Part shown: positions 13,685 to 33,468 of the stretch, piece after piece
Numbering within the stretch: position 1 is the first letter of the stretch
How the letters are laid out: the number at the start of each line of letters is the position of its first letter
DNA from: Candidatus Kuenenia stuttgartensis
GTDB taxonomy: Bacteria > Planctomycetota > Planctomycetia > Planctomycetales > Planctomycetaceae
NCBI GenBank assembly: GCA_945906725.1
Contig: CAMDRI010000007.1
Location: 1-64,000, forward strand
Direction: 5' to 3'
Length of the DNA stretch: 64,000 bases
The notes under the pieces: model-generated
The model's database searches: none
What the model saw: the letters and a program-made list of their open reading frames with translations, nothing else
What the model was told of the DNA's origin: nothing
Position numbers and translations under genes: made by a program

Positions 13685-13782
13685 CCGCTATGGCGTGACG
13701 ACTTCGCTGGAATTTGTTGTCGCACCATTCGTTTGCAGCACAATGGATTTCGTCGCATGACGAAGCCAAGGGAGGGGACTAC

Positions 13783-14898
13783 ATGGCATCAATCCAGATC
13801 GACAAATTGCTCGAAACGGTTGTCAAAGAACGCGTCAGCGATCTTCACATTTCGTGCGGACAGCCTCCCGTTTTGCGTGTTGGCGGGCACATGGTGCGAT
13901 TGGAGACAAAAGTTCTCGAGGCAGAAGATACGGTCTCACTGATGAAAAGCATCACACCTGAGCGAAATCAGCAGGAGTTACAGGAAGTTGGCACAACGGA
14001 TTTTGGTTTCGCCTTTGGCACCAAAGCCCGCTTTCGAGTCTCAGTATTTAAGCAAAAAGGCAAGATCTCGATTGTGCTGCGAAGAATACCGACAGACTTT
14101 TTAACGTTTGAACAACTTGGACTGCCGCCATTAATCCGCGACTTGATCCAAAGACCTAGAGGACTCTTTCTGGTAACCGGCCCGACTGGATCCGGAAAAA
14201 CAACCAGCCTCGCCAGTATGATTAACTGGCTGAACGAGAACTGCGATCATCACATCATCACGCTAGAAGATCCGATTGAATACTATCACGTCCACAAAAA
14301 GAGCACAGTCAATCAACGTGAGGTTGGCGTTGACGTCCCCAGCTTTTCAGAGGCGTTACGCCGCTGCCTCCGGCAGGATCCTGATGTGATCCTTGTCGGC
14401 GAATTACGCGATTTGGAAACGATGGAATCGGCGATCACCGCTGCCGAAACTGGACACCTGGTCTTCGGAACTTTGCATACAACAGGCGCGCAGGGAACAG
14501 TCGATCGAATCATTGACGTTTTCCCGACGAACCAGCAGGAACAGATTCGTACTCAACTTTCCACATCAATTATCGCGGTACTGAGTCAGCAGTTGTTGTC
14601 GCGAAAGCCCAAAGGAATGGTTGCGGCGTATGAATTCATGGTCGTCACTTCCGCGATCGCCAATCTTATCCGCGAGGGAAAGACCTTCCGCATCAATTCG
14701 TCCCTTCAAACTGGCAAGAAGTATGGAATGCAGCTGATGGACGATTCGCTGTTCAGTCTTTGGAAGAATCAACTTTGCGAAGAGTCCGACGTCATCATTC
14801 GCGCAAATAATTCCGGAGACCTACGAGACAAGATTGCCAAGGCAAAAAAAGGCCTCCTAGACGACGAGGAATCTGGAGAGGATTCCGATGACGAGTAG
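13783..14898 (+). CDS. PilT-like retraction ATPase
   Basis: A 371-residue twitching-motility-type ATPase. It has a short N-terminal PAS-like domain (VSDLHISCGQPPVLRVGG), Walker A GPTGSGKTTSLASMINWLN, Asp box (ITLEDPIEYYH), Walker B VILVGELRDLETMESAI, the His box TLHTTGAQGTVDRIIDVFP and the PilT motif GMVAAYEFMVVTSAIANLIREGK. The preferred start is the ATG at 13783, because GGGAGGGG precedes it by 7 bases; the track start at 13714 has no ribosome binding site. The C-terminus is acidic (DDEESGEDSDDE). A PilT between two E-type ATPases argues for a retractable, pilus-like machine rather than a plain type II secretion system. Confidence 0.92.
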   Translation: MASIQIDKLLETVVKERVSDLHISCGQPPVLRVGGHMVRLETKVLEAEDTVSLMKSITPERNQQELQEVGTTDFGFAFGTKARFRVSVFKQKGKISIVLRRIPTDFLTFEQLGLPPLIRDLIQRPRGLFLVTGPTGSGKTTSLASMINWLNENCDHHIITLEDPIEYYHVHKKSTVNQREVGVDVPSFSEALRRCLRQDPDVILVGELRDLETMESAITAAETGHLVFGTLHTTGAQGTVDRIIDVFPTNQQEQIRTQLSTSIIAVLSQQLLSRKPKGMVAAYEFMVVTSAIANLIREGKTFRINSSLQTGKKYGMQLMDDSLFSLWKNQLCEESDVIIRANNSGDLRDKIAKAKKGLLDDEESGEDSDDE

Positions 14899-16744: not shown

Positions 16745-17998
16745 ATGCCGGTATATCAGTACGAGGCGATGGACAATACTGGAACTGAGGTCAAGGACAC
16801 CATCGAAGCTGGCTCCGAAGCCGAAGCTCAGCAGAAGATTAAGGAACAGGGTTTCTTCGTCACCAAGATCTCCGAGAAGGGGCGAGGCGGTAAGAAGAAG
16901 GAAACCGAGAAGAAGAAAAAGCCAGCGAGCGGCCCAAGGAAAAAGAAAGGGTTTTCGTTCGGATCAGTAAAGGGAAAACATCTTTGCGCTTTTACTCGCC
17001 AACTTTCGACACTTCAGGACGCAGGATTGCCCATTTTAAGAAGTCTGAAAATCCTCGAGGGACAATCAAAGCCCGGAGTGCTGAAAAACTCTTTGATTGG
17101 GGTGATTGAAGACATCGAATCCGGCAACACGCTATCGGAAGCCATGTCCAAGCAGCCGAAGGCATTTGACGGCCTTTACGTCAACATGGTGAAAGCAGGT
17201 GAGGCCGGTGGGGCGTTGGAAATCATTTTGCAGCGTTTGGCCGAGTTTAAGGAGCGAGCCCAGAGCCTCAAGCGTAAGGTACAAGGCGCGATGATTTATC
17301 CCTGTGCGGTCATTTTCGTAGCAACCGCAATCGTAGGATTTATCATGTACTACATCATTCCGAAGTTTAAGCAGATCTTCCTGGGCTTTGGGACGGAGCT
17401 TCCCGGAATCACCGTCATGCTGATCAACATGAGCGACATCGTGGTGAGGTACTTCTACTTGTTCCCGGCAATCCCGATCGGCTTTTGGTTGATTATAAAA
17501 ATCATACGAAAGAACAAAACAGGCGAGTTTGTCTCGGACTGGCTGGTGCTAAAGATTCCTTTGATGGGCCAAATTCTCAGCAAGTCAATCGTGGCTCGAA
17601 CCATGCGAACGCTGGGAACGCTCGTGGCCTCTGGTGTGCCAATCTTGGAAGGCTTGACCATTGCACGTGACACGGCAGGCAACGCGGTGTTTCGAAAAGC
17701 ATTCGACAACGTTTATGCCGCCATTCGTGAAGGCGAGTCCATCGCGACCCCGTTAAGGGAGGCGAGAATCGTGGACGATATCGTGGTCAACATGATCGAC
17801 GTCGGAGAAGAAACCGGTGCCTTGGACAATATGATGTACAAGATCGCCGATGTGTATGACGAGGAAGTTTCGGTACTGGTCGATGGCTTGGTCAGCCTGC
17901 TGGAACCGCTGATGGTCGTCATTCTGGGTTTCATCGTCGGCTTCATCGTGATCGCGTTGTTCATGCCGCTAGTCAAACTGCTGAACGATCTGTCGTGA
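16745..17998 (+). CDS. GspF/PilC-type inner-membrane platform protein
   Basis: A 417-residue polytopic protein that forms the membrane platform on which E-type ATPases act. The N-terminus MPVYQYEAMDNTGTEVKDTI is typical. It is followed by a lysine-rich insertion (about residues 42-70, KKKETEKKKKPASG) and two GspF domains with conserved ARQLSTL-like (TRQLSTLQDAGLPILRSLKI) and RTMRTLGTLVASGVPILEGL segments. Three strong transmembrane helices are visible, and the end VIALFMPLVKLLNDLS is the usual terminal helix. There is one GspF for two E ATPases in this window. Confidence 0.93.
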   Translation: MPVYQYEAMDNTGTEVKDTIEAGSEAEAQQKIKEQGFFVTKISEKGRGGKKKETEKKKKPASGPRKKKGFSFGSVKGKHLCAFTRQLSTLQDAGLPILRSLKILEGQSKPGVLKNSLIGVIEDIESGNTLSEAMSKQPKAFDGLYVNMVKAGEAGGALEIILQRLAEFKERAQSLKRKVQGAMIYPCAVIFVATAIVGFIMYYIIPKFKQIFLGFGTELPGITVMLINMSDIVVRYFYLFPAIPIGFWLIIKIIRKNKTGEFVSDWLVLKIPLMGQILSKSIVARTMRTLGTLVASGVPILEGLTIARDTAGNAVFRKAFDNVYAAIREGESIATPLREARIVDDIVVNMIDVGEETGALDNMMYKIADVYDEEVSVLVDGLVSLLEPLMVVILGFIVGFIVIALFMPLVKLLNDLS

Positions 17999-18074: not shown

Positions 18075-18209
18075 CGTCAATAGGTTTTCGAGTGGTGATC
18101 GAATCCGTCCGGATTGGATTCTCTGTTGAGCGATTTTCGCCGTGGTGGACGGTCGAAAGTGGGATGCTGGTTTTGGGTGAATGCTTTTAGCGTCAGAGGA
18201 GATACTGAG

Positions 18210-19238
18210 ATGCAAGCCGTTTGGAAGTCCTCACCGAGCCATCGGAAACACACACCGCCACCGCGTACCGGTTTCACGCTTATTGAGTTGATGGTGGTGG
18301 TAGTAATCATCGTCCTTTTGATTGGCTTGGTGCTGCCAGCGATTTCGGGTGTCCGCAGCCGAGCACGCGATGTCGAGGTGCGAAAGGAGATTGGCGATTT
18401 GGAGCAGGCCATCACGCAATTCAAGGTGGCTTACGGTGTCGAACCGCCGAGCATGGTGACGATTTATAAGACCGATGCGCAGTGGGTTGCAGACACGAGA
18501 AGTCGAGCGGCGATCAAGAGAATTTGGCCGAAGTTAAATTTTGCTTACGCAGATCCGATGAGTCCGAATGTCGGGAGCGGCGGCCTGGCATTTCCGCCCG
18601 GTGTAACGGCGGTGCATTTGAATGGAGCCGAGTGTTTGGTTTTCTTTCTGGGCGGTGTTGCGAGTAGTACGTCAGGTGCCCTCATTGGATTTTCCAAGGA
18701 TCCACAACTTCCATTCAAAAGCGACACAAGCCGTGAAGGGCCGTTTTTTGAGTTCAAAGGAGCATATGACTCAATGACTTCAAAGTGGACCGGTCGTTTA
18801 ACAACGAACGACGACGGCGACGCAATGCCGACGTACTTAGACACGTTGCCACAGCAAACAAAACCTTATGTTTACTTTCACTCCAATGACGGAGGCAGTT
18901 ACCCGTTTGAAACGGTGGCGTCGACCACCACATCTGCCAGTTGGAGAAATACAGATTGCCTCGGTTACACGGTCAGTATGGGAATTTCCGTGTATGACTC
19001 AACAAAAACCTTGATGGAACACGCTTATTTTCAATCGTTTCCCGGCACCGGTATGACGCCGCTTGCTCAGGCTCGAAGCAGTCTGCCACATAAATCCAAG
19101 AGCTTCCAAATCATCTCGCCGGGTCCGGATGCAGCCTACGGCACGGGTGGTCTTTTCAATCCGGAGAACAAGTCAAATTTGTCGCCGGCTGACGGGGATA
19201 ACATCACCAATTTTCATCCCGGGCGGTTGGTGAATTAG
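18210..19238 (+). CDS. Type II secretion / type IV pilus pseudopilin, G-like (1)
   Basis: A 342-residue secreted protein with a basic leader of about 22 residues ending in PPPRTG, then the class III prepilin site G|FTLIELMVVVVIIVLLIGL with Glu at +5. The long N-terminal helix and the position right after gspF suggest a major-pseudopilin (GspG) role, though the protein is more than twice the usual GspG length (about 140 residues). The start ATG 18210 follows AGAGGAGATACTGAG; the track start at 18114 has no such signal. The C-terminal part (GPDAAYGTGGLFNPENKSNL) resembles the C-terminus of the next gene product (SVGPDADLG), so the two are probably paralogues. Confidence 0.85.
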   Translation: MQAVWKSSPSHRKHTPPPRTGFTLIELMVVVVIIVLLIGLVLPAISGVRSRARDVEVRKEIGDLEQAITQFKVAYGVEPPSMVTIYKTDAQWVADTRSRAAIKRIWPKLNFAYADPMSPNVGSGGLAFPPGVTAVHLNGAECLVFFLGGVASSTSGALIGFSKDPQLPFKSDTSREGPFFEFKGAYDSMTSKWTGRLTTNDDGDAMPTYLDTLPQQTKPYVYFHSNDGGSYPFETVASTTTSASWRNTDCLGYTVSMGISVYDSTKTLMEHAYFQSFPGTGMTPLAQARSSLPHKSKSFQIISPGPDAAYGTGGLFNPENKSNLSPADGDNITNFHPGRLVN

Positions 19239-19342
19239 TCGTTCAGATTTCGTTTGCCACGGCTGGCTCGGCCATGTGTCGCTGACGAGTTCGCTCGGTT
19301 GAAACCGCTACGACACACGACCGAGTGGAATCGAGGTTGACT

Positions 19343-20698
19343 ATGAACTCTTCGCATGCGGCGTCTGGTCGAAGTGAGACTTCGACGGTCCGTTTCAGAC
19401 TACGCGCAGCGTTCACGCTGATCGAGATTCTGATCGTGATTTCGATCATCATCCTCTTGGTGACGATGATGGGCGCGGTTATTGGAAACTCGGTCAAGAA
19501 GGCTCGCGAGGCGGCGACGGCGACGCTGATCGAGAAGATCGACAAGTTGTTGGACGAGCGGACGAAGGGTTTCGATCGAGCGACCAAGTCACTGGATTTC
19601 CAGCGGATCATCGCGATTCGCAAGCAGTTGTTGGAGGCGGGTGGCACCTTCGGTGTCTCGCCGAAAGTGTTGTCGGCTGTGGCTCGAAAAGATTTCTTTA
19701 AGGCGAACTTTCCACAGCGATACGCTGACTTGACTGACGTGCTGACGTTTCCGATGGGAAGTACACCAAACGGAGTTCCCGATGCGATTGAATTCGATTC
19801 CACGTTGAAGTCCGAAGACGCGAATGGCAATGGTGCTTTGGATGTTGGCGAGGACACAAATAGCAACGGAGTTTTGGACGGCTACGTGCATGCGAAGCAC
19901 AAGCCGGAGACGGAGAGTTCAGCGCTGCTGTACTACATGCTGACTCGCATGCAAGTGTTTGGCGTGCCTCCAGTCGGCGAGTCAGATTTCAGTACAAGCG
20001 AATATCGTGATACCGACGGAGATGGGTTACTGGAGTTCGTGGATGGCTGGGGCCGACCGTTGCGGTTCTATCGTTGGCCGACGCGGCTACTGAAACCGAA
20101 TGGAATTCGCGGCGCGGATAATCAACCGGGATTTGCAGGGATCAACGACAATCCCGAGTTGAACAACACCGTGGACGATTTTTTGGAGTTCGGCAAGGTC
20201 AGTTCTGACGACATCACGGTCTTGCCATCTCAAAGGGAGATCGCCGGGCATCTGATCGTGGGCTTGCCGAGCGGCCCTGTGTTTTCCGGTCAATGGGATT
20301 CGCTCAGTGAAGACCCGGATGATCCGTATGGCTTGATCTCGACGGAGATCAAACGGCTGTTTCTCCAGAGCAACGGAGCAACTAACGTGACAACGGGACC
20401 GGCCGGATTCAATGAGATGAATTATCCGACGATCGACACTTACCACACGCCGCTGATTATTTCCGTCGGACCGGATGCAGACTTGGGGTTGTTCGAGCCT
20501 TACCAAGGAACGGCCTCGGGCGCAAGCGGCGTGGGTGTGCTCGACACAGATCTGGGTATTCTGGCTCAGCCGATTCATGGCCCCGTTGGCCCCTACGACT
20601 TTGGCAATCTGGCTGTGACTCCAAACGGCAATCATGTGATCTCGGCGTTGGGGGACAATATCACGAATCGCAATCGGCGTGCGGGAAGGGGGAAGTGA
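19343..20698 (+). CDS. Pseudopilin, G-like (2), with EF-hand-type loops
   Basis: A 451-residue prepilin-type protein. The cleavage region reads RLRAA|FTLIEILIVISIIILL, with Ala in place of the usual Gly at -1 and Glu at +5 retained. EF-hand-type calcium loops are visible: DANGNGALDVGE, DTNSNGVLDGYV and DTDGDGLLEFVD. The ATG at 19343 with GAGGTTGACT upstream is preferred over the GTG at 19325. The 104-base gap from the previous gene has no clear terminator, and the stop overlaps the region of the next start (1 base apart). It is much larger than known GspG proteins. Confidence 0.83.
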   Translation: MNSSHAASGRSETSTVRFRLRAAFTLIEILIVISIIILLVTMMGAVIGNSVKKAREAATATLIEKIDKLLDERTKGFDRATKSLDFQRIIAIRKQLLEAGGTFGVSPKVLSAVARKDFFKANFPQRYADLTDVLTFPMGSTPNGVPDAIEFDSTLKSEDANGNGALDVGEDTNSNGVLDGYVHAKHKPETESSALLYYMLTRMQVFGVPPVGESDFSTSEYRDTDGDGLLEFVDGWGRPLRFYRWPTRLLKPNGIRGADNQPGFAGINDNPELNNTVDDFLEFGKVSSDDITVLPSQREIAGHLIVGLPSGPVFSGQWDSLSEDPDDPYGLISTEIKRLFLQSNGATNVTTGPAGFNEMNYPTIDTYHTPLIISVGPDADLGLFEPYQGTASGASGVGVLDTDLGILAQPIHGPVGPYDFGNLAVTPNGNHVISALGDNITNRNRRAGRGK

Positions 20699-20699
20699 C

Positions 20700-22145
20700 A
20701 TGAACAGCGTTCATGTCGCTTCGCGGCATAAAAAAGTAGTCGGCACACTCCGTGTGCCGAGTCGGCACGCGGAGTGTGCCGACTACTTTGGCTTCACGCT
20801 GGTGGAGTTGTTGGTCGTGATCACTGTGTTGTTGATTTTAGTGGTGATGACGGTCACCTCGATCGATTTCACGTTTTCGTCGGAGCGGTTGAAAGCGGGT
20901 GCTCGGCAGGTGCAATCGGCGTTGGCGGGCGCACGCGATCGGGCGATCTTCGCCAAGGAACCGCGCGGTTTGCGGTTTTTGGTTGACTCAAGCGATTCAA
21001 CGTCAGTCGAATCTCGCGTTGTCACGAGCATGATTTACATCGGCGCTCCGAGCAATTGGTCGGAAGGTCAGATTCGGCTGGAGCGAGTGGATGCCAATGG
21101 TGACAACATCGCCGAACCAGCCGTCGATACGGACAGCGACGGAACGCTCGACGCAACGGCGGTCATGATCGTCCGAGGCGATGCGCTTTGCGGCTGGTAC
21201 ACCTTGAAAGAGCGTGGCTTTCTGGGGTTGTTTGAGGACCAGAATCTCAACGGCCGATTGGATTCCGGCGAGGATGCAAACGGCAATGGACTTCTGGACC
21301 TCGACGCGCCGCGGATCAAGATTCCGGCGGACGACAACGGTTCGTGGTACACCGTGCTGGTCCTCAGTTCTGGTCCCTACGCAATGACACCGGTAAATCA
21401 GGTGTTGAAATTGGTGACGCCGTATCGCGACCCTGGCACCACTCCGGAGACGAGTGTGGTTGCGTTTCAGAACGGCGGGCCGAATACCTACATCCTGGAA
21501 CTACCGCCGCGCATGCTGCCGGAGGCTCAACCCATCCTGTTGCCGGCCGGAGTTTGTATCGACCTGGATGGTTCGCAGGTGCCACGGAGTTGGCGGTCGT
21601 TCGGCGAGGATCTCAACGACAACGGGGTGTTGAATGGTGGCGAGGACACGAACATGAACGGCCAGTTGGACCGTTCGAGCTATTCCTCGCGAATGGACGT
21701 TTTGTTTTCTCCGCGCGGCATCGTGACCGGTTCAGTGGCCGCCGAGGGTTTGCTGCACTTGTACGTCGCGGAACTCAAAGATGTGCAACGAATTGTCGAC
21801 ATCGGAGTCGACGTGAGCGGGACTGGAAGCGGATCAATGTCTCCTCGGCTTCCGATTCATGGCAACACGCTGTCGTTGGCACGAGTCCCGTTTCAAATCG
21901 TACCGGGGGGGAATCAATTCAGCCCGGAAGAACCGATCGGTCAGCGGACGATCGTTTCGATCTTCACTCAGACGGGCAAAATCTCAGCACATGCGATCGA
22001 TCCCACGGACGGTGAAGACCGAAACGGAAACGGCATGCTCGACCCAGGAGAGGACGTGAATGGCAACGGAATGCTCGATCCTCCGAATGGCTACGCGGAC
22101 GTTCCATTCCTGTTTTCCACTCGAGGCGAGGCGGCCAGCCAATGA
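20700..22145 (+). CDS. Pseudopilin, H-like, with palindrome-encoded leader and calcium loops
   Basis: A 481-residue prepilin-type protein with cleavage site YFG|FTLVELLVVITVLLIL. It is H-like by gene order and by the segment LKAGARQVQSALAGARDRAIF, which matches the GspH/FimT helix. Seven EF-hand-type loops can be read, among them DQNLNGRLDSGE, DANGNGLLDLDA, DRNGNGMLDPGE and DVNGNGMLDPPN. Codons 12-30 are exactly the 57-bp palindrome at 20733-20789. Without them the leader would be MNSVHVASRHKG, a normal short basic leader. The start ATG 20700 follows GGGAAGGGGGAAG. The stop overlaps the next start (ATGA). Confidence 0.85.
   Translation: MNSVHVASRHKKVVGTLRVPSRHAECADYFGFTLVELLVVITVLLILVVMTVTSIDFTFSSERLKAGARQVQSALAGARDRAIFAKEPRGLRFLVDSSDSTSVESRVVTSMIYIGAPSNWSEGQIRLERVDANGDNIAEPAVDTDSDGTLDATAVMIVRGDALCGWYTLKERGFLGLFEDQNLNGRLDSGEDANGNGLLDLDAPRIKIPADDNGSWYTVLVLSSGPYAMTPVNQVLKLVTPYRDPGTTPETSVVAFQNGGPNTYILELPPRMLPEAQPILLPAGVCIDLDGSQVPRSWRSFGEDLNDNGVLNGGEDTNMNGQLDRSSYSSRMDVLFSPRGIVTGSVAAEGLLHLYVAELKDVQRIVDIGVDVSGTGSGSMSPRLPIHGNTLSLARVPFQIVPGGNQFSPEEPIGQRTIVSIFTQTGKISAHAIDPTDGEDRNGNGMLDPGEDVNGNGMLDPPNGYADVPFLFSTRGEAASQ
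20733..20789. repeat. 57-bp palindrome inside a prepilin leader
   Basis: The arms AAAGTAGTCGGCACACTCCG (20733-20752) and CGGAGTGTGCCGACTACTTT (20770-20789) are perfect inverted copies. The 17 bases between them are themselves nearly palindromic. The element occupies exactly 19 codons and keeps the reading frame. It encodes KVVGTLRVPSRHAECADYF. I recognise this as a dispersed planctomycete repeat type, from memory. Confidence 0.85.
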
Positions 22146-23599
22146 ACACTCTGCGGACTAAAATTGTCCAGCGAATCCGTTCGCCTCATCTGCGAGGCGG
22201 TACGACGCTGACCGAAGTGCTCATGTCGTTGATGATCATGAGCATCGGCATCGTGTCGGTGGCGACGTTGTTTCCGCTCTCAACACTGCGTGTGCTGGAA
22301 GCCAGCCGACAAACCAATTCGACGATCACGCGGTTCTCGGCCGAAGCGGTGATCGATGTCGATGCGGGGTTCTTGCACAACCCGGACGGCACGTTTCCGC
22401 CAGGTGGAGCCGACCTGACACCGTACAACAGTCAGGCGTTTCGTGGGCAGGTGTACTTCGTCGATCCGTATGGCTGGCAGACGTTTCATCGCGACGACGC
22501 ATTGTTCCCGGCGCCTTGGTCGCCACCCGGGTCGTTGGCGGTCGCTTCGAATCCGCCGCTGCGCGACACACTCGGGCAATTGCCGCTCGGATCGACGGTC
22601 AATGTGCCACTGATGCGGCGACACTCCGGGGCGACGATGTTTGCCAGCGTGGGGATCAATCCATATCCGATGATCGCCGCAGACAGCAATTTGGCGATCA
22701 ACCGGGCCGCGAAATTGGTCGGACAACCCGACAATTGGAAGTTGATCACCTCAACGGAGGTGACGACGATCGCCACGCCCGTGCCAGGAATCACCTCGCT
22801 CTCGTTGGATACCGATGCGGACCTGACGGCGGTGAGTGTGGCACCAGGCGTGGCGTATCGTGCAGTCATCTTTGATCTCAGTGGCCAGTACAGCGAAACG
22901 CGACTCCTAGCGGCCAACCCGATCGGCCAGGCATTGGCCTTCACGCCGGCGTTGCCCAGTCGGTTTGACACTTCGCCGACAGGGGTTTCGCCGAACGTTG
23001 GCAAGGTGCGCATCGAAGTGCTGGACGAGGTTTACACCTGGGCGATGTCCGTGCGCAAACGGGCAAGCGGACCGGCCAACGTCGATGTCGTGGTCTTCTT
23101 CAAACGCAGTTTCAAACCCGAACACGAATACGTTTATCCGGCCGCGCTGCGGCGGTACACGCTGGGTCCGGATGGTCAGCCTGGAGTTGCTGGCGTCAAT
23201 GACAACAACAACTTCAACAGTGCCAATAATCCGCTCATTGATGAAGTTGCTGAGATTGGCTACGTCGGCAGCGATGACTTGCCGAACACCGTCGTGACGG
23301 TCGATTTCAGCAGCTTGCCGGCCGGGGCCGACACTCCGGCATTCCGTCGCGGCGGCTATGTGTGCGACACCAAGAACGGTTTGTGGTATCGCATCCAGAA
23401 CATCCAGAACGCAACGACGACCACGGTCGATTTAGTCTTGGATAAATTCATTCAGCGCGACAACACCGAAGACTTGTTCAATTTCGGAACCGTCGATGCC
23501 GGCGAAGACGTCAACAACGACGGGATCGTTCAGCTTGGTGGGCTGTACTGGAACCCCAGCGTCGTGAATGTCTTCCCGTTGGAAATTAAGGAACCGTGA
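22142..23599 (+). CDS. Pseudopilin, I/PilV-like
   Basis: A 485-residue prepilin-type protein with leader MNTLRTKIVQRIRSPHLRGG and helix TTLTEVLMSLMIMSIGIVSV. Threonine occupies the +1 position and Glu is at +5. The pattern LTEVLMSLMIMSIGI is typical of GspI/PilV minor pilins. The rest is a large soluble domain (typical GspI is about 120 residues) ending with a calcium-type loop DVNNDGIVQLGG. The start codon overlaps the preceding stop (ATGA), indicating translational coupling with the H-like gene. Confidence 0.82.
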   Translation: MNTLRTKIVQRIRSPHLRGGTTLTEVLMSLMIMSIGIVSVATLFPLSTLRVLEASRQTNSTITRFSAEAVIDVDAGFLHNPDGTFPPGGADLTPYNSQAFRGQVYFVDPYGWQTFHRDDALFPAPWSPPGSLAVASNPPLRDTLGQLPLGSTVNVPLMRRHSGATMFASVGINPYPMIAADSNLAINRAAKLVGQPDNWKLITSTEVTTIATPVPGITSLSLDTDADLTAVSVAPGVAYRAVIFDLSGQYSETRLLAANPIGQALAFTPALPSRFDTSPTGVSPNVGKVRIEVLDEVYTWAMSVRKRASGPANVDVVVFFKRSFKPEHEYVYPAALRRYTLGPDGQPGVAGVNDNNNFNSANNPLIDEVAEIGYVGSDDLPNTVVTVDFSSLPAGADTPAFRRGGYVCDTKNGLWYRIQNIQNATTTTVDLVLDKFIQRDNTEDLFNFGTVDAGEDVNNDGIVQLGGLYWNPSVVNVFPLEIKEP

Positions 23600-23640
23600 G
23601 AACTGAGGCGAGGGATCAGGGAATTTCAGAAGGTGGAATC

Positions 23641-25641
23641 ATGAATCGGTCGCGAACAATTCGATCACGGGCTGGCTTCACGCTGGTCGAGATGCTGATG
23701 GCGGTGACGTTGGTGCTGATCATGATGGTGATGTTCGCCGAGGTGTTTCAAATCGCCGGCGGCGCGGTCACGAAGCAGCGGACGCTGGCGGACAACGATC
23801 AAAATGCTCGGACGTTCGCCACGATCATGCGTGCCGATCTCGACAAGCGGACGTTTCGCACGCTGCTGCCGTTTTATCCCGGTGAGCCGACCAATTCGGC
23901 CACGTCGTTCAACAACCGCCGCGGTTACTTCTACATCTCCTCGAACAATCCGGGGGACAGTTCGGATGACGTGTTGCAGTTCACGGTCATGTCCACGGTC
24001 AGCCTGCGGAACGCCGACGAGTCGCCGTATTACGGCAAGGCGGTGCAGTTGCCTCAGCCGACTCCCCCAGGCTGGAACACAACGCAACAGTTCTACAATT
24101 TCTTGCAGAATCCGAATCAACCCGAGCGTGATGACGGACAGGTGATTCCCAACGGCGCGGCAACCTCACGAGCGGCTGAAGTCAGTTACTTCATGCGCGG
24201 CAGCCGCCTGTATCGCCGAGTCATGTTGCTGCGCGACCCGATTCCAGCACCGGGAGTCCCTTCGGATTTGTCGAACGACCCGCAACCGAAGTCCGCGACT
24301 GGTGCGGACTATTTCAGCGCCGTCGGCGGCTATTCCGGAAATTTCTGGAGCGACTTCGATTTCTCGGCCTATCGACTTCCCACTGGGATCAACGTGGTGA
24401 CTGGTGGGACAACACCCATCAGTGCGCGGTTTGTGGGGCTCGACTTTCTGGGAAACGCGATGGCGACTCCACCATACCCAATGACGACGGGAGATCCCAA
24501 TGAGGCGATTGAGACGTACTTTTACTCGCTGGGCCAGACGTGGAATCGATTCGGTTTCAATTCGGAGTTCGCGCTGAACTCCCCCTTGAACGGGTTGCCT
24601 CGTGAATTCAGCGGCACGAACCCGGCAACAACAGGCTTTTTCTTTCTGGGACGGTTCTCACAAGAAGAGACTTCTTCCTCGGCGTTTCAATACCCCTACG
24701 GGGCTTGGAGCAACGGTGGCAATCCACTGAACACGTCGAATGCGCTGGTCGATACCACGCCAGCCGATGGCGTGGTCGACGGGTATGCCGGCGGAGCTCG
24801 TGCCGGTGTCGATTTGCTGCTCAGCAATGTGCATGAATTCCGCGTTGAGTTGTGGGATGAGCGGGTCGGAGATTTCGTTCCGGCCGGTCACACAACGGGG
24901 GTCGGCGACTTTCATTCAGCGAGACAGTTGAATCCGGATTACCATCCACTGGGTCGCCCGGCGAGTCTCACCAATATCTTTGACACTTGGCATCCCCACT
25001 TTGATCGCAACCTCGACAACAACCAGTTCAATGATCCGCCTCCGTATCGGCCGCTGAATTACTACCCAACGGGAACTCCTGGGCCGAATGCTCCGTATTG
25101 GACAGCCGGAAGCAGCTACTCGACCGAAGATGCGAATGGCAACGGAGTGTTGGATGGCAGCGAAGACGGCACCAATGGCTTTCCGAGCGATGGACTACTC
25201 AACGCGAATGTCGTCTTCCCGTTCCTCGACGAGGACGCGAATGGCAACAGTATTGCCGACGCCGGTGAGGACACGAATGGCAACGGTGCGTTCGACCGTG
25301 GCACAATGATCATCCGGCCGCTCGGCCACTCGCTAGCCTATCGCTGCATCCGGAGTGGTACATCGAATGGCAGCCTTGCGAACGAACCGCAATGGACGAC
25401 GACTCCTGGAGTAATCGTTCGCGGGAATGAAGACCTCAACAGCAATGGCATATTGGACGCTGGAGAAGACGTCATCATTCCAAACGGAGCTCTCGATACA
25501 GGGCCGGATTGGATTTGTGAATACAACGCGCGGCCGTTGAAGGCGATTCGGTTAACGGTGCGGTTCGAGCACCCGACCAGCCAGCAAATGAAACAAGTCA
25601 CGATCGTGCATTCGCTCCGCGATACCACGGCGGTGCCGTAA
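23641..25641 (+). CDS. Pseudopilin, J-like, oversized, with calcium loops
   Basis: A 666-residue prepilin-type protein with cleavage site SRAG|FTLVEMLMAVTLVLIMMVM. It is J-like by position, by the GspJ-type helix and by the segment EVSYFMRGSRLYRRVMLLRD, which resembles the strand following the helix in GspJ. EF-hand-type loops DANGNGVLDGSE, DANGNSIADAGE, DTNGNGAFDRGT and DLNSNGILDAGE cluster in the C-terminal third. The preferred start is the ATG at 23641 (AGAAGGTGGAATC upstream), not the GTG at 23596. The usual GspJ is about 200 residues. Confidence 0.83.
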   Translation: MNRSRTIRSRAGFTLVEMLMAVTLVLIMMVMFAEVFQIAGGAVTKQRTLADNDQNARTFATIMRADLDKRTFRTLLPFYPGEPTNSATSFNNRRGYFYISSNNPGDSSDDVLQFTVMSTVSLRNADESPYYGKAVQLPQPTPPGWNTTQQFYNFLQNPNQPERDDGQVIPNGAATSRAAEVSYFMRGSRLYRRVMLLRDPIPAPGVPSDLSNDPQPKSATGADYFSAVGGYSGNFWSDFDFSAYRLPTGINVVTGGTTPISARFVGLDFLGNAMATPPYPMTTGDPNEAIETYFYSLGQTWNRFGFNSEFALNSPLNGLPREFSGTNPATTGFFFLGRFSQEETSSSAFQYPYGAWSNGGNPLNTSNALVDTTPADGVVDGYAGGARAGVDLLLSNVHEFRVELWDERVGDFVPAGHTTGVGDFHSARQLNPDYHPLGRPASLTNIFDTWHPHFDRNLDNNQFNDPPPYRPLNYYPTGTPGPNAPYWTAGSSYSTEDANGNGVLDGSEDGTNGFPSDGLLNANVVFPFLDEDANGNSIADAGEDTNGNGAFDRGTMIIRPLGHSLAYRCIRSGTSNGSLANEPQWTTTPGVIVRGNEDLNSNGILDAGEDVIIPNGALDTGPDWICEYNARPLKAIRLTVRFEHPTSQQMKQVTIVHSLRDTTAVP

Positions 25642-25659
25642 CCAACAATTCAAAACACC

Positions 25660-25680
25660 CCACCGAGCTTGTCTCGGTGG
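25660..25680. other. Hairpin after the J-like gene
   Basis: CCACCGAG-CTTGT-CTCGGTGG forms a perfect 8-bp stem 18 bases after the stop of the J-like gene. A related but imperfect stretch (CACTGAGGCAAGCTCAG) lies about 80 bases downstream. There is no U-tract, so it may be a processing site or a short dispersed repeat rather than a terminator. Confidence 0.45.
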
Positions 25681-25819
25681 CTCGCGGGCATTTGCACTAC
25701 CTCGGAACCTGCGGGAATCATTGAGTAGTGCAGAAGCCTGAAAACCACTGAGGCAAGCTCAGAGTTCTCAGTACCGAGTGAGCACGCGGGCCGCTGACAC
25801 TACGGTCGGAGATGGAATC

Positions 25820-28800
25820 ATGAAACGTCATTCCGGTTTATTGGAAATGGTGCGTCGGCGGACATCGCGTGCTTCGCGGCGTGCGGCGTGCGGAGCGCTT
25901 GGTTTGTGGGCTTGGTCGAATGCGGGAGACCTGCGGTCGCTCAAGCGGCGGGGTCGGGGGACCCGCGCCGAGCGCGGGCGGCGCGGCAGCACGTTGGTGG
26001 TAGTCATGGCGCTGTTGGGCATGCTGTTGCTGTTGGGGGTGATCTATTTCACGTTCTCCAACCAAGAGCAGCAGAGCGCGACCTACTTCGCCGAAGCGGC
26101 CAAGCGGCTCGACGATCCTGGAGACGACATCGACGCCATCTTCGACGCGGCGACCAAGCAGTTGATTCAAGGGGGCGACGCCACACAGAAGGGGAGCGCG
26201 TTGTTTGCCGGACGGTCCTCGTTGTTGTTCACGATGCTGGGGCACGACTTGCAACCGTACTCAGGGCCTGGGGTCAATCTGATCTTTGTGTCACCAGCCA
26301 TCCCCGGATTTCCCCCAGGATGGAACGTCGATCAAGATCGTGATGGTTCCCCCGATCCGATTACCGCCGGCTACAACTTGGTCGAACTCAACGATTCGCC
26401 CGCAGCGCGGCCAGACTTGTTCGAGCGAAACCAGAGCGCGATGCCCTCGCCGGATGTCGATTACACGGCGACCGATCACAACAATCCGTTCTTGGCCTAT
26501 GAAGGTTGGACGTGGGATTTCAGCACCACGCCGCCGACACGATTGCGGGTCATCAAGCCTTCGTTCCACCGCCCGGAGTTATTCCGCAAGCCAACTGATT
26601 TCAAACCCGAACCCAACTGGGCCACGCTTCCCGGAAACGGCGGGCGCTCGTTCCGGCCGCACCCCGATCACCTTTACGTCTGGCGGCAGGGCAACCCCGG
26701 ATTTGTCGTTCGGCGGTTCGTCAGTGCCGCGTCTCCGGAAGCTGGCCTCTCGTCGTTTCCATTTCAAGTGGATCTCGACGCTGACGGGGTCTTCAACGAA
26801 CAAGGGGCGTGGGACCGAGTGGCGGGAACCGCCGCGACCTACAACCAGCCGTTTGAGTACGACGTCGATACCGACGGCGACAATGAGCGCGACGCGATTT
26901 GGATGGACTTGGATTTGCCGGTCCTGGTGCGACCCACCGACAACGCGACCTACATTCCGATGATCGCTTTCAAGGTCATCGACTTGGACTCCAAACTGAA
27001 TCTCAACGCGATCGGCAACTTGTCCGGCGAAACGCGTGTGGTGGCGACCACCAACTTTGGCAACATCGTGAACCCGACAGACCGGGATATCAGCATTTCG
27101 AGCATGGGGCTGTCGTCGTGGGAGATCAATCCGATGTGGGCGCTGGACACGCTGCCATCCGAAGTGCCGGCGCCGACGCTCATCGACCACACCGCCTATT
27201 TTCACACGCCAATCACGCAGCGGCAACTCGCCAACATGGAATGGTGGTGGTTGAACAAGGGACGTGTGAAGTATCCGACGTCCGGATCGCCGCAGATTTT
27301 CGCGGGCCGCTACGGAGAAGCGAATCGGATGTGGAACGTGCTGGCTGTCAGCACGAATGCGATCAGCGTCCAGCAATCCAATAGCAACTTATTCCCGTTC
27401 CCCGGCGTGTGGGATGCGAACGACAATCGTGACGGCAACGACGGCGGGCAAATCACAATCGCCGGAGTGCTCGGCGGTCAGACGTTGCCTTGGCAGCACC
27501 CGGTGGCGCTCAACGGTCGTGGCTCCTGGTGGAATCCGGTGAACCCAAAACAAATGGATCTGCGCTCGTTCCAACAATTGGAAGACGCCAACAGCAACGG
27601 CGTGCTCGATCCGGGCGAAGATCTCAACGCTAACAACATCTTGGATTCCGGCCCGGTGATGTTTTTACGGTACACCGACCTCGGTGTGGGCGCTGACGGT
27701 TCAGGCTACGGCAACGTCGCGTGGTTCAATTTCCTCAACGGAACTTTGATGCAGAACACAGTGGTCGGAGCGAACTTTGGGGTACCACTGACGATTCCGT
27801 TACCGCCAAATCCAACGACGAACGACTTTGTGTTGGTGGATGATCCCACGGAACTCACTCTGGAATCGAAATATGTGATCCGTCCCTACGACGAACCGCT
27901 GGAAGCGGTCGATACGTTGTTGCTGCACATGTCCAAGTCCGACCGGGACCGCACTGGCATCGCCTCGCGCGTCGCCGACCTGATGCCCGGCAACATCGTC
28001 CCCGGAACCAGCGGCACGCAGAATCAACTGGATGTCGCCAAGCGATTCACGACCATCGGTTCGGATCTGAAGACGTTCGCTTTGCCGCGTCTGCCAGGCG
28101 TCCGTGATTGGGAGTTCAACGTGGACGACGACGGCAACGGTTTTCCGGAGTTTCCGCCGCAATTCGGCAGCGGTACCGCACAAGCCTTTCAACCTCTCGA
28201 CCCATTCCGTCCGCAATTGCGGCGGCTGCTGAAAAATGAACTTGGCAATACATCGCATATTGAGCACACGTTTCGCTTGGGCATCAATGAGCTACTCGAC
28301 GTCGAACGGATTCCGAATCAGCCCGCCAATCCGCTGAGCGATCCGTTGCAGTACCGGCCACTGACCCCACATTCGACCGACATTACGCTGACGACTATCC
28401 CACCACTCAGCCCGTTGCCGGCCTATCCTCCGACGACCGAGGGGGAGAAGGAATTCTGGGCGAGACGCGACCGACAACAAATGGCTCGCGACATCTATGT
28501 GATGCTCTACACGTTCTGTGGCGGCAACGATACGGTTGACATGACCTCCACGTCGGGGATGACGGCCTATCCGGCAAACACTCGACGGATGATGGCGCAG
28601 TTCGCGGTCAACATGGTCGATGCCCTGGACCGAGACAACGTCATCACTGCCTTCGAGTACGACAACAACCTCGCCAACGGCTGGAACTTGGACGACGACG
28701 ACACAGCCAACACGACTCCTTCGGCGGGGGACACCGTTCCCGGTGATCGTGGCGTCGTCTTCGGTGTCGAGGCTCAGGAACTGACCTTCAGCGAGGTGAT

Positions 28801-30907
28801 GTGGATTCGGCAGGCGCAAGGCACAAACGGTGACAGAACACCATTCGACGATAATGTCGTTGACGGCACGAACTTCTTTCAAGTTGAACTACGGTCCGTC
28901 AGTCCAAAGTCTGTTGCCCTTGCGACTACTGTTTCCAACACAGCAACCACAGGCATCTGGCGGATTCATCGCGACGACAACTTTGATGCGACGATCGACG
29001 CGACGACCGAGAACGCATTGATCTTTTCCAGTGGAGCCGGAAGCGTGGCTCCGGGCGCGTTATTCACGATTGCTTCGGCCGATCTCACATCGGTTGGTTC
29101 GGCATCGTTGTACATCGACTACACGGGGACTGCATCCACAAGTACTGCGAAACATGCCGAACTAATCGCACCCAACTTAACCACGGGGACGGTCTACATC
29201 GGAACAACCCTGCCTCCTGAAGCGAATTTGGACTTACTTCACGCAGCGCATGCAACTCGATTCACGCTGCAAAATGGCGGTGCAGCAACGGGAAATTTTC
29301 TCAGCCGCTCGAATCCCCCGCCTGGAACTGTGACATCTACAAACTTGCATTTGGAACGTCGGCTAAACCCAAACCTCCCGCAACTTTCGCTGGCAACCAA
29401 CCCATTCACCACCGTCGACTCATTTCGCGGGATTGATCGCCGCGAATTAAGTGTTCCCTCAACCGCCACGCAATTGAATGCTTCCACCCAGCTAATGAAT
29501 GCCGTCGTCGCGACCAGAGAGCGACGTCAACCATTCGACCGTGGAGACGTTGTCGACAGCACCGGGAGTGGCTCGTCGGTGCATGTCAACAGCATCGGCC
29601 AAACCAACCCAACCGGTCCCGCGACGACTAACTTGCACCAAATCCATCACGATCGCGACTTCGCTTCGGTCGTCGAGTTATTCAACATCCCGCTGCGTGA
29701 CCCCGCTGCGGTGACGCGCAATCAACGGAACTCGCGCCGTCCACCTGAAAGTCCGGTGGGTGTACCAGCAGGTCCTTTCCCAGCGTTGGATCAGCGAGGG
29801 CAACTGGAAGTTGGCGGCCCATTCACGTTCGGAGCAGCAGTCTTGATCCAAAGCGAGGACAGCGACGAAAACGGAACGCTGGCCCTCGGCGAGGACAGCA
29901 ACGGCAATGGAGCTCTTGATCCCGGCGAGGATGGCACGAACGGCAATCCGATGGATGGCGTCCTGCAATTCGGCGAGGACGTCAACGGAAACACTGTGCT
30001 GGACGTCCCCGGCACGGCAAATCACGCCGCCCCGAATCATTTTCATCGGCTGCTGTCGCTCGTCGAAGTTCCTACTCGCTCGCACCGTCAGTTGGGTGAT
30101 CCGCTGAAGCTCACGCGAGTTCCTGGCAAACTGAATCTCAACGGCATCAACGATCCGCGAATTCTCGCAGCGCTGCTCGATGAGCGGGCGCTAATGAACG
30201 CTCCCGAACGGGATCTCAACGGCAACGGAATTTTCGATGCGGCTGAAGACCTCAACGGCAACGGCATCTTCGACTACGGCCTGACCGATGCCGGCCAGCC
30301 GACCGACGAACTCTACGGTGCCGGGCCGTTAGGTATTGGCCGAGATTGGTGGTTCAACTTCCTGGTCTCGCGCGACGGAATCGATCCGACCAGCAATTTA
30401 CCGTTGCCAATGAGTGCGGGGATACCGTCGCCACGACCACCTCGGCCGTTCCGCGACATGGGACTGCTGCGATCCAGCCAGAGCACGACGCCGCTCTCCT
30501 CACCTGTGGAGGACACTGTCTTGCGGCGTCTGCCGAATAGCATTTCCGGACGTCGATTGTTTGAACTGGGAAGCGAAAATCCGTCACCTCCAGGAGCTGA
30601 CGAGTTCCTTGATGGCACGGTCGCTCCCACGTTGCGTCATCGGCTGCTGTCGAAAGTCGCCAACAACACCTCCACGCGCAGCAATTGCTTCCTGGTGTTT
30701 GTGACCATTGGCATGTTCGAGTGCAAAGAACTGCCGAACGGGGCCACCCGCGTCGGTGCCCCGATGGATGTCGATAACGACGGCCAACCGGACACGCACC
30801 GGGCCGTGTTTATCATCGACCGCTCGATTGCCGAAGAAGCCTACGACAAGGGGAGCAAGTCGTTCGATTGGAAGAAATTGGTTCTGGCCAAGCAGCGCGT
30901 GAATTGA
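25820..30907 (+). CDS. Giant GspK/PilX-like pseudopilin with calcium loops
   Basis: A 1695-residue protein; the usual GspK is about 320. An unusually long arginine-rich leader of 56 residues ends in RRG, followed by STLVVVMALLGMLLLLGVIY with no Glu at +5, as in GspK. GspK-like phrases SKLNLNAIGN and GKLNLNGINDPRILAALLD recur in two places, suggesting duplicated K-type domains. At least ten EF-hand-type loops can be read, for example DANSNGVLDPGE, DSNGNGALDPGE, DLNGNGIFDAAE and DLNGNGIFDYGL. The start ATG 25820 follows GGAGATGGAATC. It would cap the pseudopilus tip with the I- and J-like proteins. Part of the leader (codons 34-53) looks like translated repeat DNA. Confidence 0.82.
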   Translation: MKRHSGLLEMVRRRTSRASRRAACGALGLWAWSNAGDLRSLKRRGRGTRAERGRRGSTLVVVMALLGMLLLLGVIYFTFSNQEQQSATYFAEAAKRLDDPGDDIDAIFDAATKQLIQGGDATQKGSALFAGRSSLLFTMLGHDLQPYSGPGVNLIFVSPAIPGFPPGWNVDQDRDGSPDPITAGYNLVELNDSPAARPDLFERNQSAMPSPDVDYTATDHNNPFLAYEGWTWDFSTTPPTRLRVIKPSFHRPELFRKPTDFKPEPNWATLPGNGGRSFRPHPDHLYVWRQGNPGFVVRRFVSAASPEAGLSSFPFQVDLDADGVFNEQGAWDRVAGTAATYNQPFEYDVDTDGDNERDAIWMDLDLPVLVRPTDNATYIPMIAFKVIDLDSKLNLNAIGNLSGETRVVATTNFGNIVNPTDRDISISSMGLSSWEINPMWALDTLPSEVPAPTLIDHTAYFHTPITQRQLANMEWWWLNKGRVKYPTSGSPQIFAGRYGEANRMWNVLAVSTNAISVQQSNSNLFPFPGVWDANDNRDGNDGGQITIAGVLGGQTLPWQHPVALNGRGSWWNPVNPKQMDLRSFQQLEDANSNGVLDPGEDLNANNILDSGPVMFLRYTDLGVGADGSGYGNVAWFNFLNGTLMQNTVVGANFGVPLTIPLPPNPTTNDFVLVDDPTELTLESKYVIRPYDEPLEAVDTLLLHMSKSDRDRTGIASRVADLMPGNIVPGTSGTQNQLDVAKRFTTIGSDLKTFALPRLPGVRDWEFNVDDDGNGFPEFPPQFGSGTAQAFQPLDPFRPQLRRLLKNELGNTSHIEHTFRLGINELLDVERIPNQPANPLSDPLQYRPLTPHSTDITLTTIPPLSPLPAYPPTTEGEKEFWARRDRQQMARDIYVMLYTFCGGNDTVDMTSTSGMTAYPANTRRMMAQFAVNMVDALDRDNVITAFEYDNNLANGWNLDDDDTANTTPSAGDTVPGDRGVVFGVEAQELTFSEVMWIRQAQGTNGDRTPFDDNVVDGTNFFQVELRSVSPKSVALATTVSNTATTGIWRIHRDDNFDATIDATTENALIFSSGAGSVAPGALFTIASADLTSVGSASLYIDYTGTASTSTAKHAELIAPNLTTGTVYIGTTLPPEANLDLLHAAHATRFTLQNGGAATGNFLSRSNPPPGTVTSTNLHLERRLNPNLPQLSLATNPFTTVDSFRGIDRRELSVPSTATQLNASTQLMNAVVATRERRQPFDRGDVVDSTGSGSSVHVNSIGQTNPTGPATTNLHQIHHDRDFASVVELFNIPLRDPAAVTRNQRNSRRPPESPVGVPAGPFPALDQRGQLEVGGPFTFGAAVLIQSEDSDENGTLALGEDSNGNGALDPGEDGTNGNPMDGVLQFGEDVNGNTVLDVPGTANHAAPNHFHRLLSLVEVPTRSHRQLGDPLKLTRVPGKLNLNGINDPRILAALLDERALMNAPERDLNGNGIFDAAEDLNGNGIFDYGLTDAGQPTDELYGAGPLGIGRDWWFNFLVSRDGIDPTSNLPLPMSAGIPSPRPPRPFRDMGLLRSSQSTTPLSSPVEDTVLRRLPNSISGRRLFELGSENPSPPGADEFLDGTVAPTLRHRLLSKVANNTSTRSNCFLVFVTIGMFECKELPNGATRVGAPMDVDNDGQPDTHRAVFIIDRSIAEEAYDKGSKSFDWKKLVLAKQRVN

Positions 30908-30929: not shown

Positions 30930-31006
30930 TTCAACGCAAAGAAACGCAAAGCCCGAGGTCTGCGAAACAACTCGCCGGACTCTTTCCTTTGCGTCTTTGC
31001 GTTGAA
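30930..31006. repeat. Inverted repeat (TTCAACGCAAAG type)
   Basis: TTCAACGCAAAGAAACGCAA plus AG (30930-30951) is an inverted copy of CTTTGCGTCTTTGCGTTGAA (30987-31006), apart from a two-base insertion. It lies between the GspK-like gene and the membrane glycosyltransferase gene and runs into the ATG used by the track ORF (31006). It may terminate the pseudopilin operon. Confidence 0.7.
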
Positions 31007-31047
31007 TGTCGCGGATCCTCGAACAGCAATCCTCACGGGCAATCGTG

Positions 31048-33468
31048 ATGTCTGGACCTCAGTCGGAATCAGAACGTGGTCGACGGGCCAGAGTGAGCGA
31101 GTGGATCGCGGTCGCGTGGATTATCGGGTACGCGATTTTCTTCTTTCACTTCACGTTGCCGAACAATTCGGCATTCAGCCGCGTCGACGTCTGGCTGGAG
31201 TTGCCGAACTTGCTGTGGTCAAACGTGGTCACGCCGCCGAAGTCTCCGGCAACGAGTTGGTCGAATCTTTCGCAACGGCTCGATCTGTTCGTGGTGGCAG
31301 CGGCGATTTGGCTCGGAAGTTGGGCGGTCGGTGGATTGCTGCTGCGAGCGATGTCGATCCCGTTGGCAACTGGCTCGGCCGAGCGGCTCGTGTGTGCGTG
31401 CGGCGTAGGACTGTCGGCCGTGTCGCTGCTGACGCTGGGCTGCGGGTTGGCGGGATGGCTGTCGCCGTGGTTGCTCGGCGGCGCGCTGGCGGTGGCCGTG
31501 ATGATCGAAGCGTCGTTGTCTCTGGGAGGGCGAGGCTCCTGCCAAGCCGACGACGGACAGGACATCGGTTCGGCAGGAGTCTCGTCTGCCCTGAATCGTC
31601 GTTCGACCTGGGAGTCACTGAAGGGATTCGTGTCGCGCGGGGAGCAGCTTCCGTATTCGCTCGTGGCGAAGAGTCTCGCCGTCGTGACCATCAGCTTGTT
31701 TCTGCTGGCGATGCTGCTGGGTTCCGCGCTGCCGCCGACCGACTTCGATGTGAAGGCGTATCACCTCACCGGGCCGAAGGAGTATTTTCTCAACGGCCAG
31801 ATCACGTTTCTGCCGCACAACGTCTACACGAACTTTCCGTTCTTAACCGAGATGCTGTGTTTGCTGAGCATGGTGCTGCGGCAGGACTGGTATTGGGGCG
31901 CTCTGGCGGGGCAAGTGGTGCTGATGGGGTTTGCTCCGCTGACGGGACTGGCGTTGTTCTGCGCGGGACGGCGTTGGTTCGGAGAGACTGTCGGTTGGTT
32001 GGCGGCGGTGATTTATCTCTCGACGCCGTGGACGTACCGGCTGGCGATCATCGCGTATGTCGAGGGGGCATTGTCGTGCTATTTGTTCTTGGCGCTGTTC
32101 GCAGTGCTGCTGGCGACTGAAGCCTCTCGACACGAGGAACACCGCTCGGCATCGAATCGTTTTCTCTTGCTAGCGGGCTTCTTCTCGGGGAGCGCCATGG
32201 CGTGTAAGTATCCGGGGCTGGTCTCGGTGGTGATCCCTCTGGGGTTGGCGTGCGTCATTGTGGTTCGCAGAGGGAATTGCGGCTCTCGGATTTCTGCTCT
32301 CGGATTTCTTCCGGGGCGGCTGTGGGGAGCGGTGATGTTCTTGACCGGGACGGTGCTGGCGATTGGACCTTGGTTGCTCAAGAACTTGGTGGCGACGGGG
32401 AATCCGGTTTATCCGCTGGCCTTCGGGTTGTTCGGCGGCCGAGACTGGGATGCCGCCTCGCACGCAAAGTGGCGAGCGGGACACAGTCCCAACACGTTCG
32501 CGCTCAGCGATCTTGCCGAGAAGTTCATCGATGTGACCGCGAAGGCGGATTGGCTGAGTCCGCTGCTGTTTGGACTCGCGCCGCTGGCGTTGCTTTGGAA
32601 GTCGGAGATCGGGAGTCGGAAGTCGGAACATTCCGCATTCATCCGCTGGCTGTGGCTGTTCGTCGCGTACCTGTTCGCTCAGTGGTGGTTGCTGACGCAT
32701 CGGATCGACCGCTTCTGGGTGCCGCTGATTCCCGTCGTGGCCTTGTTGGCGGCGTCGGGATGTCTGTGGTCGCCGAGCAAACTATGGCGGCGCACGTGTG
32801 GCGGGTTTGTGGCCTTGTCAGTGCTGTTCAATTTGGGATTCGTGACGACTCCGTTGTGTGGGTTCAACGCCTACCTGTCGGACCTCGATCAAGCCCGCGC
32901 AGGAGCGGAGAACACGGCGGAAGGGATTCACTACCTCAATCAGTTGGCGGACGCCGGTAAGTTACCCCGAGACGCGACCGTGTTGTGTGTCGGCGATGCG
33001 CAGGTCTTCGATGCTCGACCGCGAGTTCTCTACAACACGGTGTTCAATCAACCGATCTTCCGCGACTGGTTGGCGGTGCGTCCGGCGAAAGACCCTCCGT
33101 GGCAAGACTGGTCGCTGCGACCGATCGAAGAAGTACGTCGAAAGTTCGAGTCGGAAGGAGTCACTCACGTCCTAGTCAACTGGCAGGAAATCCTGCGCTA
33201 TCGCATGACGTATGGCCATTCGGACTTCGTCACTCCGCAGCGATTTGCGTGGCTGCGCGAGCAAGGATTGCTCGGCAATCCAGACGACTACGCACTGGGA
33301 TTCCGAAATTTCGACTCACTGCGAACGCACGACCTTCGTCAGCAAGACGAGCAGCGTGAGGTCGAAGAGTGGGCACCGGAATTGAAGAGGGCGATCGCCG
33401 GTAAGACGGTCTTCGTGACGTGGCAGTTGTTCCCGGTTCAGGCGGCGTCTCGCCCAAATTCGGAATGA
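31048..33468 (+). CDS. GT-C-type membrane glycosyltransferase-like protein
   Basis: An 806-residue integral membrane protein with 12 or more hydrophobic segments. The loop after the early helices contains PPTDFDVKAYHLTGPKEYF and ENG-like LPHNVYTNFPFLTEMLC. This fits GT-C polyprenyl-phosphate-sugar glycosyltransferases (GT39/ArnT-like), where an acidic residue in the first large periplasmic loop is catalytic. I prefer the ATG at 31048 (MSGPQSESER), because the ATG at 31006 lies in the arm of an inverted repeat. A palindromic element is embedded in frame at 31524-31591. It may glycosylate surface or pilin-like proteins made by the upstream cluster; that is inference from position. Confidence 0.7.
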   Translation: MSGPQSESERGRRARVSEWIAVAWIIGYAIFFFHFTLPNNSAFSRVDVWLELPNLLWSNVVTPPKSPATSWSNLSQRLDLFVVAAAIWLGSWAVGGLLLRAMSIPLATGSAERLVCACGVGLSAVSLLTLGCGLAGWLSPWLLGGALAVAVMIEASLSLGGRGSCQADDGQDIGSAGVSSALNRRSTWESLKGFVSRGEQLPYSLVAKSLAVVTISLFLLAMLLGSALPPTDFDVKAYHLTGPKEYFLNGQITFLPHNVYTNFPFLTEMLCLLSMVLRQDWYWGALAGQVVLMGFAPLTGLALFCAGRRWFGETVGWLAAVIYLSTPWTYRLAIIAYVEGALSCYLFLALFAVLLATEASRHEEHRSASNRFLLLAGFFSGSAMACKYPGLVSVVIPLGLACVIVVRRGNCGSRISALGFLPGRLWGAVMFLTGTVLAIGPWLLKNLVATGNPVYPLAFGLFGGRDWDAASHAKWRAGHSPNTFALSDLAEKFIDVTAKADWLSPLLFGLAPLALLWKSEIGSRKSEHSAFIRWLWLFVAYLFAQWWLLTHRIDRFWVPLIPVVALLAASGCLWSPSKLWRRTCGGFVALSVLFNLGFVTTPLCGFNAYLSDLDQARAGAENTAEGIHYLNQLADAGKLPRDATVLCVGDAQVFDARPRVLYNTVFNQPIFRDWLAVRPAKDPPWQDWSLRPIEEVRRKFESEGVTHVLVNWQEILRYRMTYGHSDFVTPQRFAWLREQGLLGNPDDYALGFRNFDSLRTHDLRQQDEQREVEEWAPELKRAIAGKTVFVTWQLFPVQAASRPNSE
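31524..31591. repeat. Palindromic repeat inserted in frame in a membrane protein gene
   Basis: GGGAGGGCGAGGCTCCTGCC plus AAGCCG (31524-31549) is an imperfect inverted copy of 31566-31591 (CGGTTCGGCAGGAGTCTCGT plus CTGCCC). It encodes about 23 hydrophilic residues (GGRGSCQADDGQDIGSAGVS...) between two transmembrane segments. The composition and shape match dispersed palindromic repeats rather than a protein domain. Confidence 0.65.

Follow-up and report, generated by a model that had tools for sequence, protein, structure and literature searches.

A class-wide family of giant, putatively GspK-type minor pilins encoded directly after a pilin cassette in planctomycetes

The window, the whole stretch of 64,000 nucleotides that was analysed, carried a run of forward-strand pilus genes ending in one very large open reading frame. 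Two PilB/GspE-type ATPase genes were present, the first (11987–13684) matching TIGR02538 at 1.5e-184, below the cut-off, and the second (14961–16670) matching PF00437 and PF05157, with an MshE-type c-di-GMP motif and NF053729 above the cut-off. The gene between them (13714–14898) encoded a PilT/PilU retraction ATPase (TIGR01420, 441.5 bits; cut-off 319.1); pilT was flanked by two PilB/GspE-type ATPase genes in most relatives with enough sequence. A gene for a PilC/GspF inner-membrane platform protein (16745–17998; PF00482, 1.2e-61) was followed by five pilin genes. By profile matches, p1 (18114–19238) and p2 (19325–20698) were GspG-like and p5 (23596–25641) was assigned to the GspJ/PilW position; p3 (20679–22145) was GspH-like (TIGR01708 1.1e-8 and TIGR02596 6.8e-8, both below cut-off) and p4 (22142–23599) PilV/GspI-like (TIGR02523 0.0018 here, to 2e-7 in relatives). 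The partner pilins were also enlarged: p3 (488 aa), p4 (485 aa) and p5 (681 aa) all clearly exceeded the usual size of pseudopilins. The gap between p5 and the giant gene contained the palindrome CCACCGAGCTTGTCTCGGTGG (25660–25680), which was classed as a dispersed REP-like element because it had 9 matches in the genome at no more than 1 mismatch and the reversed control had 0. A gene for a PMT_2-type glycosyltransferase (31006–33468) adjoined the operon and stayed 3' of the giant gene in the close relatives L046, L047 and L048; pilin glycosylation is a possible role.

The giant gene itself was a single unbroken forward-strand ORF, with an ATG at 25820 and a stop codon ending at 30907, encoding the 1695 residues given in the original prediction. 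GGAG was located 8 bases 5' of the ATG, and an in-frame GTG at 25778 provided an alternative start that would add 14 aa. The protein was placed in a family (A1) of 29 sequences. Its N-terminus consisted of an Arg-rich leader, then RRG followed by STLVVVMALLGMLLLLGVIYF. Residues 52–80 (25973–26059) contained GRRG followed by STLVVVMALLGMLLLLGVIYFTF and comprised a prepilin cleavage site between Gly56 and Ser57 and a hydrophobic helix that matched the GspK-like helix by hhalign at 95.8% probability. The residue at +5 after Gly56 was Val. Among aligned giants covering that site, +5 was V, I, L or M and never Glu (32/32), unlike the neighbouring pilins p1–p5, all five of which had Glu5; the K-type helix lacking Glu+5 described earlier was thus confirmed.

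Exact copies of KLNLN were found at residues 392–396 and 1437–1441, the two distant places where they had been noted. Two hNhN motifs were reached in 8.8% of composition shuffles, within chance on count alone, and the weight of the two motifs comes instead from the conservation of their asparagines, which were near-invariant in relatives (N396 33/33, N1439 30/31, N1441 31/31).

An alignment of 33 giants was used for these conservation counts and for profile comparison with GspK. GspK references were PF03934, PF21687, NF037980 and the structure 3CI0, and the GspK profile was built from E. coli K-12 GspK, stretches of PDB 3ci0_K and 5vtm_X, and normal and intermediate planctomycete GspKs. Five elements were collinear with GspK: the helix, the first NLN motif (VIDLDSKLNLNAIGN, residues 386–400, 26975–27019), S..ELL.V (RDFASVVELFNIP, residues 1279–1291, 29654–29692), GKINLNT..VL..L (RVPGKLNLNGINDPRILAALL, residues 1433–1453, 30116–30178) and a C-terminal TTRSNVF. 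They scored 59.5, 26.9, 23.6, 36.3 and 18.8, respectively, each above 60/60 column shuffles (shuffle maximum for motif 2, 16.4), and the best scores against the five partner pilin families were 39.7, 25.6, 18.4, 18.4 and 15.7. The helix and motif 2 were thus clearly K-specific; motif 1 was not (GspK 26.9 vs 25.6 for p2), and the ELL element and C-terminus preferred GspK by small margins. A C-terminal segment running from NNTSTRSNCFLVFVTIGMFE to HRAVFIIDRS (residues 1614–1669, 30659–30826) is a candidate, on a weak match, for the strands that close the pilin sheet. When three proteobacterial GspKs were used alone, notable scores were obtained only for the helix, motif 1 and motif 2, and ELL was lost.

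Curated models, including T2SSK and T2SS_GspK, gave no match at cut-off to the 1695-aa protein, and the Pfam scan of this protein gave no match to the SAM-like domain T2SSK_1st. Some giants matched the N-terminal end of NF037980 (T2SS_GspK) below threshold (best 1.8e-4), and one matched PF03934 (T2SSK) at 0.0065. A likeness by eye of block 884–955 to the GspK SAM-like domain ('IADYIDxDD') was not supported on scoring (residues 870–970, 13.9 vs a shuffle maximum of 19.0). The K claim is based on the order of the elements and the position of the gene, not on one strong score. On sequence grounds, K-type identity has good support as a working hypothesis: the K slot, the missing Glu5 and the five collinear elements bear out the GspK likeness that had been proposed, and the SAM-like domain and a score at any curated cut-off were the parts that did not appear.

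Calcium-loop-like repeats were more frequent than expected. Over its full length the protein had 9 matches to the strict pattern D.[DN].[DNGS]G, against a mean of 0.15 in shuffles (0/2000 reached 9), and 14 to a relaxed pattern (whole-protein shuffle mean 2.1). The claim of ten or more such loops between the NLN motifs was too generous, with only 3 strict or 8 relaxed matches in that interval, mostly unconserved. The loop DVDTDGDNE at residue 348 (26861–26887) was the sole one strongly conserved in the giant family, with D348–D354 kept in 28–31 of 33 giants; DQDRDGSPD at residue 171 (26330–26356) was moderately conserved. The others were mostly restricted to close relatives, as was a cluster at residues 1345–1395 (29852–30004); the pair DANSNGVLDPGEDLNANNILD (27584–27655) showed no conservation across the family, and the pair DLNGNGIFDAAEDLNGNGIFD (30212–30280) was a pattern match.

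The most conserved insertion block (residues 884–955, 28469–28684) contained RDRQQMARDIYV, AQFAVNMVDALDRDNVITAFEYD and NGW in that order, with A926, Q927, N931, V933, D937 and D939 invariant. It was followed at about residues 980–1140 (28757–29239) by a lamin-tail-domain-like region. A domain of this kind near 960–1140 was expected from the alignment before the Pfam scan, in which PF00932 was the only family matching more than one giant (6/24 members, best E 0.0018); the 1695-aa protein itself gave no PF00932 match in that scan. A sequence search of the PDB and profile searches of it with three segments returned no convincing relatives. AlphaFold2 models of residues 46–860 and 860–1695, made from three input sequences only, had a pLDDT of 26–27; they showed an N-terminal helix and C-terminal strands and were not counted as evidence.

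The giant family was widespread in searches of related genomes. With a C-terminal profile it was detected in 181/199 sampled genomes of the class (166/178 of good quality) and in 105/109 genera. A sample of 246 genomes from the phylum gave 15 positives, 15/15 from the same class and none from outside it, and a search of viral contigs gave no relatives. Apparently complete giants were ORFs of about 1350 to 3231 aa, so the size that had been taken as exceptional is the norm across the class. Multiple matches per genome were often pieces of one giant gene, and a few genomes had more than one copy.

Synteny was counted at the 45 loci whose sequence extended 3 kb or more upstream of the giant gene. 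The giant gene directly followed the pilin cassette in 45/45 loci from more than ten families; a family unlinked to pilin genes, named beforehand as the outcome that would speak against the idea, was not what was found. The nearest upstream pilin was p5 in 30 loci, p4 in 14 and p3 in 1, and most loci had the order pilB-pilT-pilB-pilC-p1-p2-p3-p4-p5-K. Some families had no p5-like gene detected before the giant, and at locus L079 the p5-like gene came after it. No p5-like pilin was detected ahead of the giants at L170 (G441, 3217 aa) and L171 (G425, 3014 aa). A search of the available literature found no description of a planctomycete GspK or giant pilin.

A separate GspK-like protein of 628 aa was encoded elsewhere in the genome (L133:2577–4463, minus strand; G000:C4). 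It matched T2SSK_1st at 6.3e-15, contained NLN motifs and carried an insert, GEDFNRNGLLDPNENDGD, that resembled an EF-hand. Its gene lay between gyrB and a gene for an EF-hand protein, and a scan of its neighbours found no other T2SS genes. Outside the class, two large K-like planctomycete proteins (L124, G113:C4; L128, G094:C233) had a pilin helix and T2SSK motif early in the sequence, followed by long C-terminal extensions (1464 and 1035 aa, respectively).

The giant family is real and spans the class, and its members are oversized forms of an already known type of subunit. We consider it probable, from sequence comparison and gene position, that the 1695-aa protein is a minor pilin of the GspK/PilX type whose head has been enlarged by insertions and which caps a retractable pilus. 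Its prepilin leader would be cleaved after Gly56, and its helix would pack with those of the H-, I- and J-like pilins whose genes come immediately before its own. The missing Glu5 would place the giant outermost, at the tip. The K-type core would be formed by the segments around both NLN motifs and the C-terminal strands. Insertions between these segments (about 880 residues from the first NLN motif to ELL, including the lamin-tail-like domain, and shorter ones elsewhere) would form a large exposed head, possibly stabilised in part by calcium loops. The PilB/PilC/PilT machine would extend and retract the pilus, which would bring the head into contact with surfaces, polymers or DNA ahead of the rest of the fibre. 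The presence of one giant beside the same pilus genes in nearly every sampled genome of the class points to a probable large pilus tip. A role of the head as adhesin or substrate receptor is plausible by analogy with modular pilins (PMC8179133) but is a guess.

Tip placement is one step beyond the clear helix, and a protein anchored by that helix in the inner membrane might instead act as a large periplasmic scaffold or substrate adaptor that never enters the fibre. A very large head (relatives reach 3231 aa) might not pass a secretin, of which the genome has at least three over the cut-off. However, the K position and the missing Glu5 fit tip subunits, and the PilY1/minor-pilin complex illustrates that large heads can ride on a type IV pilus tip (PMC7541494); we regard the inner-membrane arrangement as unlikely. 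Somewhat less likely again is a type II secretion pseudopilus with the giant as its K subunit, the head selecting or pushing exported enzymes; this would agree with the H-I-J-K gene order, the GspK-like motifs and the substrate contact proposed for GspK (PMC7541494). It is opposed by the PilT/PilU ATPase above the curated cut-off in the same cluster and by the conventional 628-aa GspK-like protein elsewhere in the genome. With PilT in the cluster, a type IV pilus is a likelier identity for the machine of this operon than a T2SS pseudopilus; the cap that was predicted appears to stand as a K-type subunit, and its assignment to a pseudopilus is the less likely one. Least probable is a pilin likeness confined to the N-terminal helix of an otherwise unrelated surface protein with convergent, turn-type NLN motifs: strong scores were restricted to the helix and motif 2, the count of NLN-type motifs was within chance and the calcium-loop-like repeats weakly matched other large ORFs of the genome, but the five elements in GspK order above all shuffles, the near-invariant asparagines and the strict position after minor pilins argue against it.

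For the GspK/PilX-type tip subunit that we favour, a polysaccharide receptor would be an attractive function because pili-like fibres from planctomycete crateriform pits bind dextran (PMC5394234). The boldest form of the idea is that, throughout the class, K cap and tip adhesin or receptor have become a single giant pilin, up to about 3200 residues long, and that this pilin is the receptor by which planctomycete fibres bind dextran-type polysaccharides; this we hold to be unlikely. If the favoured reading of a tip subunit holds, the giants would be the largest class-wide minor-pilin family known to us, sharing a syntenic operon with a retraction motor, and would give a concrete gene for two questions: which ligands planctomycete pili bind, and how a head of roughly 1400–3200 residues passes the outer membrane. 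Genetic tools are at hand, as the deletion of pilQ-like genes in Planctopirus limnophila shows (PMC11958385).

Among known systems, the giant shares with GspK the helix and missing Glu5, two NLN motifs, the S..EL element, GKINLNTA..VL.aL, a C-terminal S..F strand and its place as the last gene of an H-I-J-K-like cassette. The extra domain of GspK sits inserted into the pilin sheet (PMC8179133), and the giant would similarly hold additional domains within its pilin core. The giant differs from GspK in its length (1695 vs about 320 aa), its several large insertions, the SAM-like domain (not detected in the giant) and its position adjoining pilT. It resembles PilX of the type IVa FimU-PilV-PilW-PilX set in lacking Glu5 and in filling the K slot of a cluster that also encodes a PilV-like pilin and PilT; PilX, which lacks Glu5 like GspK, has been placed below PilY1 at the tip, and GspK too is assigned to a tip position (PMC7541494). 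PilX is small and its adhesin PilY1 is separate, whereas the head of the giant seems to be built in. The 1695-aa protein had no Pfam match to PilX_N (PF14341) at E <= 0.1 or to the PilY1 beta-propeller PF05567.

Modular minor pilins such as S. sanguinis PilB, T. thermophilus ComZ and C. crescentus CpaL combine, as the giant would, a pilin module with a large inserted or appended module whose proposed site of action is the tip (PMC8179133, PMC12607857), and one modular minor pilin has been proposed as a mechanosensor (PMC12607857). Modular pilins are widespread, but the most extreme multi-domain case cited has 860 residues (PMC8179133), against about 1350 to 3231 aa for giants conserved across a class. 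The Verru_Chthon cassette A–D (NCBIfam TIGR02596, TIGR02598–TIGR02600) likewise consists of a pilin-like set and one giant: p3 resembled D, p5 C and, weakly, p4 B, and some giants resembled A, with all matches restricted to the N-terminal 40–70 residues and below cut-off. Classification of the giants as Verru_Chthon A (TIGR02600, 1296 positions) was rejected, as 0/99 genomes exceeded 332 bits and only positions 1–66 matched. If the favoured reading of the giants holds, it suggests that the Verru_Chthon cassette, an uncharacterised set, may encode minor pilins of the H-I-J-K type.
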